Shown: positions 9,213 to 55,515 of the stretch, piece after piece
Layout: the number at the start of each line of letters is the position of its first letter
Position numbering within the stretch: position 1 is the stretch's first letter
Assembly: GCA_024278175.1 (NCBI GenBank)
Contig: JAJRTS010000111.1
Coordinates: forward strand, 1-64,000
Reading direction: 5' to 3'
DNA from: Gemmatimonadales bacterium
Lineage (GTDB): Bacteria > Gemmatimonadota > Glassbacteria > GWA2-58-10
Length of the DNA stretch: 64,000 nt
Program-made: the position numbers and the translations under genes
The notes under the pieces: model-generated
The model's database searches: none
The model's input: only the letters and a program-made list of their open reading frames with translations
What the model was told of the DNA's origin: nothing

Positions 9213-9722
9213 GAGTTCCCCGCCTCGGGAGAGCTCCTGATACCGATCCGTCACAACTGATAATCAGGATTATTGACGAAGCGGAGATTTGTTCGCGGAA
9301 GCAAGGCGGCAGTGGCGTCGCCGCTGCCGCCCAATACCGTAATCCACGGCATTGGGCGGCTCTTGCCGACAAAGCAGGCGGGCCGAAGGGGAAATAAGCG
9401 CCGGCTTGTTTTTCTTTGGTAAAAATAAAACCAGTCTTCCGCGGATAAAGTAATTCTGTGTTAACTCGCTTCATTGCCAAAAGTTATCGAAATGGGGCTA
9501 TATTTTTTTGAATAATGCCGGCTAAAAAACTCTTGATTTCAGCTATAATCTGTGGTACTTTTTTCTTTGTTAACCGCTGGATGGCCAATAAACTGCGGCC
9601 CAAAAGCGGAAAAGACGGATAACCGATTATTTTCCGGTTATTACAACTTTCCGTTAAACGGACAATAAAACATGACCGCCGGCGCCGGCATACTCCTGGC
9701 GGGCTGCCGTTTTAGCTTGTCC
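9213..9722. other. Non-coding spacer with a strong hairpin
   Basis: This spacer follows yhaM. It holds a strong hairpin at 9326-9360 (15-base arms GCCGCCCAATACCGT and ACGGCATTGGGCGGC with one G-U pair, loop AATCC) without a T-run. A weaker GC-rich hairpin spans about 9669-9713, bounded by AAAAC and GTTTT, and could act as a terminator. A possible 35-codon ATG frame at 9515-9622 encodes one hydrophobic segment but has no ribosome-binding site. Confidence 0.6.
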
Positions 9723-9935
9723 TTTAAAAGCGTGTTGAAAAATACGAAAGTGTGGGCATTGAGGTTGTCAAGGGCAGTTTCCCGTGATGCTGCTTAAAGC
9801 CGGCGGGAGCAACGCAACAGCTTGGGAAAAAACAACTAACCGAATCAGTAAAAGAAACGGCCGTGCCTTGCCCTTGACAACCAGAGGAGAGAAATTTTTA
9901 TCATAGGGCGTTGAATGTTTTTAGTTCAACGCCCC
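9723..9935 (+). repeat. Dispersed structured repeat, copy A (upstream of mreB)
   Basis: First copy of the roughly 200-bp element. The left tail is TTTAAAAGCGTGTTGAA. The inverted arms are GGTTGTCAAGGGC (9763-9775) and GCCCTTGACAACC (9870-9882), with about 94 bases between. The terminal hairpin at 9907-9934 has arms GGGCGTTGAA and TTCAACGCCC. The right arm carries TTGACA (9874-9879), followed after 17-19 bases by TTTATC/TATCAT, so this copy may supply the mre promoter. The other copies are at 17694, 32680, 39083 (degenerate) and 55079. Confidence 0.8.
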
Positions 9936-10081
9936 CTCAGAATAGAGAGTGGCGAATAACCTGTTCACCTGCCGAGCAAGGGTACGACACTATTTCTTCG
10001 ACATTTATCATACTGGTCATACTGGCCGCGCTCGGGACGCTTGTCGCCGTGCTGGTGGCCCGCAATCGTAACTCGACTGCT

Positions 10082-17454: not shown

Positions 17455-17693
17455 AATCCTCTCCCCGGTTTTAGCTGAAAGATGCTTTGATGTTTCTCCC
17501 TCGTTTCAAAACCACTGCAATAACCGTTCCTGAATAATACGAAAAATCCATATCACTACAGCGCTTACGGTTGGCTCTCATTTACTTACTACACGCCCGC
17601 TCCCGTTGTGTTCGCTTTGCGGGCAGGCTGCCCGGAAACATGCGTAATTCCACCACACCTGTTACCAGTCCGGCAACACCGGGACAGCCGGCA
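17455..17693. other. Spacer upstream of the sorting-domain gene
   Basis: Non-coding. It should hold the promoter of the minus-strand sorting-domain gene, but no -10/-35 pair stood out. The 17620-17693 part is GC-rich with short inverted segments (GCAGGCTGCC). It leads directly into repeat copy B. Confidence 0.4.
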
Positions 17694-17891
17694 GCGTGCC
17701 CAAAAAATACCGAAGGGATGGGAATTGTGGCTGTCAAGGGCCGTTCCCCGTTGTGCCGAAAAAAAGCAGGAGCAATGTAACCGTTTGTAAGACAAATAGC
17801 AGAACCGGTAAAAAAACTCGGCTTGCCCTTGACAACCTGTCGAGCAAAATTTTTCATCCCATGGCGTTGAATGTCTTCATTTCAACGCCCC
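17694..17891 (+). repeat. Dispersed structured repeat, copy B
   Basis: The left tail GCGTG...AAAAAATACCGAA aligns with copy A with small gaps. The inverted arms are GGCTGTCAAGGGC (17729-17741) and GCCCTTGACAACC (17825-17837). TTGACA is followed 17 bases later by TTTCAT. The terminal hairpin at 17863-17890 has arms GGCGTTGAA and TTCAACGCC. The element ends two bases from the stop codon of the minus-strand AMMECR1 gene. Confidence 0.75.
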
Positions 17892-17892
17892 G

Positions 17893-18447
17893 CTAAAGCC
17901 GGTCCTTCTCACCGAACACCTCGGCGCTGAACGAGCGGATCTCCGTGCCCTTCATCTTCCAGGCATCCGGCGGGAGACCCGCCTTGCGGCATGTCTGTTC
18001 CAGAAAAGTGTTCCGATCCCAGCCGTACTCGGTCGCCACCTGCGGCAGCAGCAGTCCCTGCCGGCCGCCGTGCCGGATAATGAGCCCGTCACGGCCGAGC
18101 TGGATTTCAGCTACGTCGTCCACCGGGGTAATCGGGCTCATGGCGCTGATTTCAATCTCCAGCTCATCGAGCTCGTCCTCGCTCACCGGGTTGAACCGGA
18201 TGTCATGCACGGCCGCGGACACCGCCATGTCCCGCACGGTTTCCACCAGCGGCCGCAGTCCCTCTATCAGGCCGACACAACCTCGAAGTTGTCCCCGTTT
18301 TCTGAGCGTAACGAACGCGCCCCTGTGCTGCGCGGTCACCTCGCTCACCGGCTGATAGTCCAGCGGCTGCTGGTTGCCCACCACCCTGGTGACTGTTTCG
18401 CGGGCCACTTTGAGCAGAAATTCTTTATCCTCAGCGGAAAGCGACAT
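17893..18447 (-). CDS. amrA: AMMECR1-domain protein (AmmeMemoRadiSam system protein A)
   Basis: 184 residues covering a full AMMECR1 domain. Family blocks include GAFVTLRKRGQLRGCVGLIEG (about 49-69, with the conserved LRGC motif), AAVHDIRFNPVSEDEL and GLLLPQVATEYGWD. The product is a small cytosolic protein. In the AmmeMemoRadiSam set it accompanies a Memo-like protein and a radical SAM enzyme; the reaction is not firmly established. The Memo partner is immediately upstream on the same strand, while no radical SAM gene is nearby. Confidence 0.9.
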   Translation of the reverse strand: MSLSAEDKEFLLKVARETVTRVVGNQQPLDYQPVSEVTAQHRGAFVTLRKRGQLRGCVGLIEGLRPLVETVRDMAVSAAVHDIRFNPVSEDELDELEIEISAMSPITPVDDVAEIQLGRDGLIIRHGGRQGLLLPQVATEYGWDRNTFLEQTCRKAGLPPDAWKMKGTEIRSFSAEVFGEKDRL

Positions 18448-32514: not shown

Positions 32515-32679
32515 AAAAACGGAAATCGTAGTGTCAGCCTTGCAAATCCTCAACACACCCCCGCGGATACTGTCATTTCGTAGTTAGTAATCAGCTATCA
32601 CACGGCCCCAATGTCCACTGCCGCTTGGAACATCGGGGCCGGTACCGGATTGTCAGGCCAGCCGCCTAATCAAAAAAAG

Positions 32680-32877
32680 TTGTGAAAAACCCTAAAGGTA
32701 AGGGATACAAGCTGTCAAGGGCCGTTGCGAGCATATTGAAAGAGAGGTCGCTTTTAAAACTATAAAGGTAAATCACATTTACTCGATATGTTACAATTCG
32801 AACGTCTTGCCTTGCCCTCAGGCGGCGATCAAGCAATATATTTCCATCCGGGCGTGTGAAAAGACTTTTCACCGCCC
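32680..32877 (+). repeat. Dispersed structured repeat, copy D (divergent)
   Basis: It aligns with the other copies at the left tail (GTTGTGAAAAACCCTAAAGG), the left arm CTGTCAAGGGCCGTT (32712-32726), the right-arm remnant GCCTTGCCCT and the terminal hairpin. The hairpin (32850-32877) has a changed sequence: GGGCGTGTGAAAA pairs with TTTTCACCGCCC. The right-arm TTGACA is lost. It fills the clpC-bamA gap (32515-32908), in which no other feature was seen. Confidence 0.6.
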
Positions 32878-32908
32878 TCCCGACTGAACTGTAATAATCG
32901 CGGGCCGG

Positions 32909-39059: not shown

Positions 39060-39082
39060 CCGCTCACTCTTTCGCTCCGGGA

Positions 39083-39206
39083 GCGTGTTAAAAAACGTCC
39101 ACCATCTGAATTCAGCTTCTCAAGGGTCAGCCCAGGGCCGATTCCCCGACCCCGGCCAGCGAAAAGAAAAATTTCAGGACCGTTAAACGTCTTTTTTCAA
39201 CGGTCC
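39083..39206 (+). repeat. Possible degenerate copy E of the dispersed repeat, overlapping the lysS end
   Basis: The left part (GCGTGTTAAAAAACG at 39083-39097), the centre (AGGGCCGATTCCCCG) and the terminal hairpin (39177-39206, GGACCGTT with AACGGTCC) resemble the other copies in the same order, but the long loop and right arm are missing. The hairpin spans the last codons and stop of lysS. It is between lysS and lolC in a probable operon. Confidence 0.4.
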
Positions 39207-40706
39207 TCTAAGCTGGGGAAAAAGAATCACGTCCTTGATAGTCTCCATGCCGGTAAGCAGCATCACCAGCCGGTCGATCCCGATCCCGACCCCGCCGGTG
39301 GGCGGCAGGCCGTACTCCATTGCGCGAAGGTAGTCATCGTCGAGCACCTGGGCCTCCTCATCGCCCTCGTCGCGAAGTTGCATCTGGGCCTCGAACCGTC
39401 CGCGCTGGTCCAGCGGATCGTTAAGCTCGCTGAACGCGTTGGCGATTTCCGCCCCGCCGATAATCAACTCGAATCTTTCGGTCAGCCCGGGCTTGCTGCG
39501 ATGACGCTTGGCCAGCGGGCTGGTCTCCAGCGGGTAATCCGTTACGAACGTGGGGTTGATCAGGTGCGGCTCCACCAACTCACCGAACAGCTCATCGAGC
39601 AGCTTGCCCGCGCTCATGCCCGGCTCAACTTCGATCCCGTGTTTTTTGCACAGTGCTGCCAGCCGCGGCTTATCCAGCGGCAGGGAGATTTCCTCGCCCG
39701 CCCGCTCCCCGATCAACTCCAGCATAGAGCGCCGCGGCCAGGGTTTGGCCAGGTCGATATCGTGCCCGCGCCAGCCGAACACCAGATTTCCCCCCGGAGC
39801 GGCGGCTGCGGCCGCATCGACCAGCATGTCCTCCACCAGGTCCATCATCTCGTGATAGTCGGCGTAGGCCTGGTAGAACTCCAGCATGGTGAACTCAGGG
39901 TTGTGCGTACGGTCGATACCCTCGTTGCGGAAATCCTTGCTGAATTCGTAGACCCGGTTCAGCCCGCCGACGATCAGGCGCTTGAGATAGAGCTCGTTGG
40001 AGATCCGCAGATAGAGCTTGCGATCCAGCGCGTTATGATGGGTCGTGAACGGCCGGGCCGCCGCACCGCCGTAGATCGGTTGCAGCACGGGGGTTTCCAC
40101 CTCCAGGTACTCCCGGTCGTTGAGGAAGCGCCTGATCCGGTCGATAACCGCCGCGCGGGTGCGGAACACCTGCTTTACTTCCGGGTTGACCACCAGGTCC
40201 ACGTAGCGCTGACGGTAACGCAGCTCCTTGTCATGGACCTCGTCGAACACCACCTTCTCGCCATCGACAACTTTCTCCTTCACCACCGGCAGCGGGCGCA
40301 GGCTCTTGGCCAGCAGAACAATCGACTTCACGTGCAGGGTGATCTCACCGGTGCGGGTGCGGAACATGTGGCCCTCCACACCGATAAAATCTCCCAGGTC
40401 CAGCAGCTTGACCATCTTGTAGGGGTCCTCGCCCACCTCTTCCTTACGCACGTAGAGCTGCAAGAGCCCGTAGCCGTCGTCGATATGGGCGAACGCCACC
40501 TTACCCTTGCCGCGGAACGAGCGGATTCGCCCGGCTATCCGGTGGCGGGGCCCCTTGTCCGGCTCCTGGAAATCCTCGAATTTCCCGATCAGTTCGGACG
40601 TGCGCGAGTCGGACTCGAACGCGTAGGGATACGGCTCCACTCCAAGCTGCCGCAACTGTTCGAGTTTTTCGATCCTGACCTGCCGTAACTGATGCCCCTC
40701 TTCCAT
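39183..40706 (-). CDS. lysS: Lysine--tRNA ligase (class II)
   Basis: 507 residues. The OB-fold anticodon-binding domain (about 55-150) is followed by the class II catalytic domain, with motif 2 FRNEGIDRTHNPEFTMLEFYQAY and motif 3 GGVGIGIDRLVMLLTG. The product ends GPLKKDV; these codons and the stop lie inside the hairpin of a possible repeat copy. It is downstream of prfB and upstream of lolC on the same strand. Confidence 0.97.
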   Translation of the reverse strand: MEEGHQLRQVRIEKLEQLRQLGVEPYPYAFESDSRTSELIGKFEDFQEPDKGPRHRIAGRIRSFRGKGKVAFAHIDDGYGLLQLYVRKEEVGEDPYKMVKLLDLGDFIGVEGHMFRTRTGEITLHVKSIVLLAKSLRPLPVVKEKVVDGEKVVFDEVHDKELRYRQRYVDLVVNPEVKQVFRTRAAVIDRIRRFLNDREYLEVETPVLQPIYGGAAARPFTTHHNALDRKLYLRISNELYLKRLIVGGLNRVYEFSKDFRNEGIDRTHNPEFTMLEFYQAYADYHEMMDLVEDMLVDAAAAAAPGGNLVFGWRGHDIDLAKPWPRRSMLELIGERAGEEISLPLDKPRLAALCKKHGIEVEPGMSAGKLLDELFGELVEPHLINPTFVTDYPLETSPLAKRHRSKPGLTERFELIIGGAEIANAFSELNDPLDQRGRFEAQMQLRDEGDEEAQVLDDDYLRAMEYGLPPTGGVGIGIDRLVMLLTGMETIKDVILFPQLRGPLKKDV

Positions 40707-50541: not shown

Positions 50542-50630
50542 GACGCGGGCCGGCACGTTCATTGCCTGCACCAGCGGCCGGACGCATTCTCCACTCCCTG
50601 CGATTCGCAATGAACGTGCCGGCCCGCGTC
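50542..50630. repeat. Perfect 24-base inverted repeat in the trpA-ABC spacer
   Basis: The arms at 50542-50565 and 50607-50630 (core GCGGGCCGGCACGTTCATTG and its complement) match over all 24 bases, with 41 bases between. No gene lies inside. It resembles the 18-96 repeat in build but not in sequence. The remainder of 50429-50740 shows nothing else apart from the terminator at 50450. Confidence 0.75.
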
Positions 50631-55060: not shown

Positions 55061-55078
55061 GTATGTAATCAGCATTAC

Positions 55079-55289
55079 TTTAAAAGCGTGTTGAAGTATT
55101 CGAAAGTATGGGCGCCTGGTTGTCAAGGGCCGTTTCCCGCTATTCAAGCCCAAAACGATGCGTACGATGCAACTGCCTGACATAACACAAGTAACGGGCT
55201 CAGCAAAAGAAACGGTTTGCCTTGCCCTTGACAACCAACAGCGCAAAATGTTTCATTTGCGGGCGTTGAACGTTTTATTTCAACGCCCC
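55079..55289 (+). repeat. Dispersed structured repeat, copy C
   Basis: Closest match to copy A. The left tail is TTTAAAAGCGTGTTGAAG. The inverted arms are GGTTGTCAAGGGC (55118-55130) and GCCCTTGACAACC (55224-55236). An inner stem CCGTTTC/GAAACGG lies next to them. TTGACA is followed 17 bases later by TTTCAT. The terminal hairpin at 55261-55288 has arms GGGCGTTGAA and TTCAACGCCC. The last bases (CCCCTTTAA) mirror the first (TTTAAAAG), giving imperfect terminal inverted repeats. Nothing else was seen in 55290-55515. Confidence 0.8.
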
Positions 55290-55515
55290 TTTAAGTATCA
55301 GGATTGCTTCTCTGCATATTTCTCACACTACCTTGGGAGACAGAGGGTTGTGCTTTTGTTCTTATCAAAAGCTCGTTGAAAAAACATGCTTTTTCAAAAC
55401 CAGCGGCATCCAGCGAACCGCCTCCCGTCACTCAGCCCCCGCCCAGTACTTTCCGCTCCAGCCGGGACGCTTTCTCGCTCAACGCACGGATTTCCTTTAC
55501 GCGCAGGAACCCGTT

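Follow-up and report, generated by a model that had tools for sequence, protein, structure and literature searches.

A repeat of about 205 bp that is dispersed through the genome of this Gemmatimonadales bacterium is, with high probability, a non-autonomous DNA transposon (a MITE) that is restricted to this bacterial family. Its unusual feature is a separate inner stem, which is conserved more strictly than the ends that jumping should require. The evidence was drawn from the window, by which we mean the whole 64,000-nucleotide stretch of DNA that was analysed, from the genome under study (G000; 113 contigs, 4.18 Mb) and from other genomes, among them those of a sister species (G001) and of a member of another genus in the same family (G003). 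The initial annotation of the window left the choice between a non-autonomous mobile repeat and a family of structured RNAs, and several lines of evidence favour the first: the ends are inverted, targets are duplicated, two sites are empty in the sister species, one copy is nested in another, and relatives differ in copy number.

Four copies had been placed near positions 9723, 17694, 32680 and 55079, and all of them are borne out by an nhmmer profile that was made from copies genome-wide (E-values from 6e-14 to 4e-67). The features of the window are as follows.

9720..9945, + strand: element copy 1, whole (profile match 9721-9942, E 1.7e-58); served as the blastn query
9728..9740, + strand: left terminal inverted repeat of copy 1, AAGCGTGTTGAAA, with TTAA (the YTAR target) just before it; agrees with the consensus
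9763..9775, + strand: left arm of the inner stem of copy 1, GGTTGTCAAGGGC
9870..9882, + strand: right arm of the inner stem of copy 1, GCCCTTGACAACC, located after the inner helix GAAACGG and an asymmetric bulge
9906..9934, + strand: terminal hairpin of copy 1, GGGCGTTGAA / TTCAACGCCC, with the right terminal inverted repeat as its 3ʹ half
17685..17904, + strand: element copy 2 (profile match 17690-17900, E 1.4e-49), arms at 17729-17741 and 17825-17837
32667..32890, + strand: element copy 3, diverged (profile match 32682-32882, E 5.9e-14)
39067..39219, + strand: shorter, diverged relative, first listed as a fifth candidate at 39083-39206 (profile match at the right end only, E 2.2e-4)
55076..55302, + strand: element copy 4 (profile match 55078-55296, E 4.2e-67)

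The 13-base arms that had been described as shared, about 90 bases apart, are exact (GGTTGTCAAGGGC/GCCCTTGACAACC) in copies 1 and 4, but carry one mismatch in copy 2 (GGCTGTCAAGGGC) and have decayed in copy 3, where the left arm reads AGCTGTCAAGGGC, the right arm has become GCCCTCAGGCGGC so that full pairing is lost, and the hairpin is altered to GTGAAAAG/CTTTTCAC. Copy 1, with 94 bases separating its arms, has a decayed right-hand target copy (CTCAG). Copy 4 carries its target TTTAA duplicated on both sides (55079-55083 and 55290-55294), with arms at 55118-55130 and 55224-55236 and the hairpin at 55261-55288. The suspected fifth copy is matched at its right end, but it is a shorter relative rather than a full copy, and belongs to a sub-family that is also found at locus L234, to which it is 66% identical.

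A consensus plan was assembled from 97, 30 and 6 copies of three genomes. It begins with YTAR and the left end (A/C)AGCGTGTTGAAA, from which some 20 nt of variable spacer lead to a left arm, GGYTGTCAAGGGC, joined to CGTTTC. After a loop of about 75 nt come GAAACGG, about eight extra bases (CTTGCCTT) and the right arm GCCCTTGACARCC, which makes the inner stem an inverted repeat of 19 bp that is interrupted by an asymmetric bulge. The plan closes with a spacer that contains AAATNTTTCA, the terminal hairpin GGGCGTTGAA...TTCAACGCCC, and T plus YTAR, and here too the 3ʹ half of the hairpin constitutes the right terminal repeat. The left end, (A/C)AGCGTGTTGAAA, and the right end, AGGGGCGTTGAAA, form an imperfect inverted repeat, with several positions at which the two do not agree. 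Copies measure 200-214 bp between the end anchors, and the arm blocks lie 90-109 nt apart, start to start, in 131 of the 133 paired copies. The GC content is 47%, compared with 59% for the window, and the longest ORFs inside the element reach a maximum of 70 amino acids (median 44). A scan of copy 1 for outward promoters formed from the TTGACA in the arms revealed none at the arms.

A search for further copies elsewhere in the genome, which had been suggested as a check, identified 126 places within two mismatches of the left-arm 17-mer GGTTGTCAAGGGCCGTT, whereas the reversed-pattern control yielded 2; copy number is accordingly given as at least 126. Use of copy 1 as a blastn query returned 174 candidates, and 40 genomic copies were scored. 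When no more than one mismatch to the 17-mer is allowed, G003 has 78 copies and the sister species 4 (4-6 over all counts), with no matches in 58 other genomes. The exact left end plus target, YTARAAGCGTGTTGAAA, is present in five of the six family genomes, whereas 292 further genomes from the phylum all lack it. Thus, the MITE is confined to this bacterial lineage. IMG/VR gave no match to the two-arm pattern, and the lone match from a GTDB contig scan lacks the right arm and apparently arose by chance.

The single orientation reported for the copies is true of the window, but the genome is mixed, with 58 of the 126 matches forward and 68 reverse. Adjacent copies share an orientation in 30 pairs and oppose each other in 21 (p = 0.26), and therefore the uniformity within the window is a matter of chance. 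A search for replication-strand polarity of the copies found none.

Insertion has left its mark on the flanks. At least 5 bp are common to the two sides of the element in 48 of 127 copies, whereas re-paired flanks give 10.5 ± 3.2, with a maximum of 20 (200 shuffles). The excess of matching falls only at the Y and the R of YTAR (z of 5.8 and 5.2), the T and A between them being nearly fixed, and thus indicates a duplication of at least 4 bp. The target is mostly C/T-T-A-A/G, and a few copies look like duplications of 5-7 bp (ACTCAGG, TAAAACA). The orthologous region of the window did not serve as an empty-site test (divergence around copy 1 is too great to give a clean one, and the copy 2 site in the sister genome contains another small element with the same ends), and joined flanks were therefore made for ten other sites, the first eight of which were searched in full. 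At one site the sister species reads GATATCTAGGG-CCTGATGG where the genome under study reads GATATTTAGG[element]TTTAGGAACTGATGG; the flanks are 82% and 92% identical, and the junction is clean at the TAG that ends a gene. A second empty site (L122) has 20 bp in the sister species where G000 has the element. In G003, one copy is nested within another at CTCTAA (L073).

Other junctions between repeats were encountered. At about position 2068 of locus L241 (reverse strand), a copy is interrupted by an element with ends CCGGATTATTCATAAAAG and CTTTTATGAATAATCCGGG and CTAAC repeat flanks, and at L136 a start similar to that of the interrupting element, AACCCGGATTATCCAT, adjoins the copy. Three contig starts of the genome under study, C40, C84 and C103 (L055, L236 and L240), join the same flank, TGACCACGCACATAG, to three different elements, which is probably an assembly artefact at repeats. 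The G000 assembly is also broken by two multi-copy insertion sequence (IS) elements (L206-L211; L171 and L173), with ends ...TAAGTTCT and ...AAACAGCTTCTAR that are cut at contig ends.

The copies had been described as intergenic, and none of 99 genomic copies lies inside a predicted gene. Gene calls came from a simple codon-usage script, and element-gene distances are therefore approximate. Gene 3ʹ ends that face the element lie within 10 bp of it in 25 of 85 cases, compared with 3 of 98 for gene 5ʹ ends. Since YTAR includes TAA or TAG, insertion at a stop codon restores the stop. We infer that this restoration explains the 3ʹ-end bias: insertion at YTAR would duplicate the stop codon, so that entries at gene ends would be harmless and therefore retained.

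The proposed mechanism calls for a DDE transposase that would act in trans to cut both ends and insert the element. An enzyme of the IS5 type is probable, given that IS5 targets YTAR, a duplicated motif that is typical of its insertions (PMC10359306); the element likewise sits at YTAR, with at least 4 bp duplicated. The IS5 of E. coli serves here as a model for target choice, its likeness to the element lying in the target. Searches of G000 for PF01609 genes, PF13586 genes and the end pattern uncovered no autonomous element with matching ends: the PF01609 (DDE_Tnp_1) genes lack the element's ends, and the PF13586 (DDE_Tnp_1_2) genes have a different end sequence. End pairs spaced 0.5-3.5 kb apart were sought across all fetched loci, which gave two weak and unconvincing pairs only, and no copy among 133 paired copies has more than about 110 nt between its arms. 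One of the multi-copy IS elements that lie at contig ends in the genome under study ends in ...ATGAAACAGCTT-CTAR, reading AAGCTGTTTCAT, which is similar but not identical to the AAGCGTGTTGAAA of the element; judged by its sequence, this end offers a lead on the partner rather than a match.

Elements that share the ends of the repeat but differ from it internally were found at L178, L188 and L226 (G001 and G000) and at L184, L192, L198, L215 and L236; among them is a composite, about 150-200 bp long, that contains several internal palindromes. Tiny 23-bp palindromic relatives consist of two ends placed back to back (CTAGAAGCGTGTTGAAAAAACACGCTTCTAG). Loci L177-L203 of genome G002 share the left end, and their interiors often carry the palindrome GTAGGGGCGACGCATGCGTCGCCCCTAC. 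That small elements with the same ends have different interiors suggests a single shared transposase, which may have been lost or gone undetected. Two inverted repeats of the window were recorded separately. Positions 18-97 hold a 30-nt inverted repeat, GTAGGGGCGAACCTTGTGTTCGCCCGTAAA, that is 97% complementary with 20 nt between its arms and resembles the palindromes of the G002 elements, and positions 50542-50630 hold a perfect 24-nt inverted repeat, GACGCGGGCCGGCACGTTCATTGC, with 41 nt between its arms.

Comparison with known systems places the element among bacterial MITEs, with which it shares a short length, the lack of a transposase gene, inverted ends, a target duplication, a composition richer in AT than the host, intergenic location, many copies and a stable stem-loop (PMC10969869). 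It differs from them in that its inner arms are more conserved than its ends. The short length, terminal inverted repeats and target duplication, along with the two empty sites, agree with the features described for this class (PMC10969869, PMC2229807). Given that no related autonomous IS was found, the element is at most a ‘type II’ MITE, in which likeness is limited to the ends. RUP, Correia/NEMIS and ERIC elements are likewise 100-200 bp in length, intergenic and strongly base-paired, with terminal inverted repeats and a duplication with TA at the termini (PMC2229807). We recognised no sequence shared with them, and the element targets YTAR rather than TA alone. Moreover, those families pair their 5ʹ end with their 3ʹ end (PMC2229807), whereas the inner stem described here is separate from the terminal repeats. 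The CIR repeats of Caulobacter and Brucella also comprise two stem-loops and a linker, and are multi-copy, intergenic and confined to one lineage, but they lack the usual terminal inverted repeats and their duplication is unknown (PMC2229807), whereas the element here has both. The repeat had not been recognised as any named family, and this still holds; the window has no Rfam match. As a MITE it is of a well-known kind, albeit from a previously unnamed family, and the inner stem is its unusual part.

Mean identity to the consensus is 96-99% for the left arm, 93-98% for the right arm, 74-81% for the loop and 87-92% for the left end. The left-arm figure is inflated because the left-arm 17-mer served to retrieve most of the copies; the right arm lies outside that pattern. 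The third pair of the stem is T-A in nearly all copies of G000 and C-G in all 30 copies of G003. One pair of the inner helix varies between T-A (U-A) and C-G within G000, where 23 copies show the double change, and double changes are also seen in single copies such as L080. The covariation check suggested in the initial annotation has a divided outcome: 30 compensated cells were counted within G000, whereas shuffles gave a mean of 11.8 and at most 20, but the cells represent few independent events that are shared by descent in sub-families, an ancestry that the shuffles retain. With compensatory changes between genera and a stem conserved above its loop, the inner stem itself appears to be maintained.

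These same data are what a family of structured RNAs would call upon. On that explanation the copies are transcribed, the inner stem and terminal hairpin form a functional RNA, and mobility merely spreads the copies. Stem identity of 93-99% against 74-81% for the loop and the compensatory changes speak in its favour, as does the folding of three of four plus-strand cores, which exceeds that of shuffles when they are treated as RNA (z of -2.7 to -3.4; -0.8 for the fourth). However, an inverted repeat read as DNA shows this symmetry too, and in one core the minus strand folds no worse than the plus strand. The pattern of covariation would be no different for a DNA palindrome bound by a dimer, or with arm-to-arm correction in a quasi-palindrome. 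The loop is unconserved between genera, the ancestry common to sub-families survives in the covariation shuffles, an Rfam search of the window returned no match, and orientation relative to neighbouring genes is mixed (35 ++, 25 --, 16 -+ and 10 +-), with no rule evident. An RNA family thus finds no direct support, its covarying stem fitting a DNA repeat equally, and we regard it as improbable.

Still less probable are palindromic repeats that are moved by a Y1 transposase of the REP/RAYT or IS200/IS605 type and read as single-stranded hairpins. A terminal hairpin at one end, a conserved inner hairpin, the intergenic locations and the 23-bp palindromic relatives would all suit such a system. 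However, Y1 transposition is not known to leave a target duplication, whereas that of the element is clear, its two ends mirror one another as inverted repeats, and its orientation shows no strand polarity. A family of recombination sites, be it the attC sites of integron cassettes or another, shares the imperfect inverted repeat, asymmetric unpaired bases and high copy number, but attC sites are arranged as RYYYAAC/GTTRRRY, which the arms lack, and with copies across dozens of contigs in both orientations, target duplications, no cassette array and no integrase gene seen beside an array of copies, this reading is barely credible.

For the MITE, then, the uneven conservation within a copy calls for an explanation, because a neutrally decaying dead copy should lose all positions alike, which makes such a pattern hard to obtain neutrally. 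Selection on the arms, either in those lineages that continued to move or by the host, is the probable cause. Since the inner stem is preserved where the loops have diverged, it may represent a second cis-requirement, either as a protein-binding inverted repeat or as a hairpin in single-stranded DNA or RNA. The stricter proposal, that the stem must fold into a hairpin (of single-stranded DNA or RNA) to bring in the transposase or a host factor, is a tentative one that we consider rather unlikely. To our knowledge, no bacterial MITE has been described that needs a structured internal element in addition to its ends.

An abundant, lineage-restricted miniature transposon is now delimited, with at least 126 copies that make up about 0.6% of a 4.2-Mb genome and sit at assembly breaks and gene ends. 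Its preference for stop codons exemplifies a target rule that is able to make a dense repeat harmless. Furthermore, a stem that persists across genera, in contrast to the drifting loops and spacers, provides a natural test of what a MITE needs beyond its ends, and if the folding proposal is true, a miniature transposon would need a structured internal element besides those ends.
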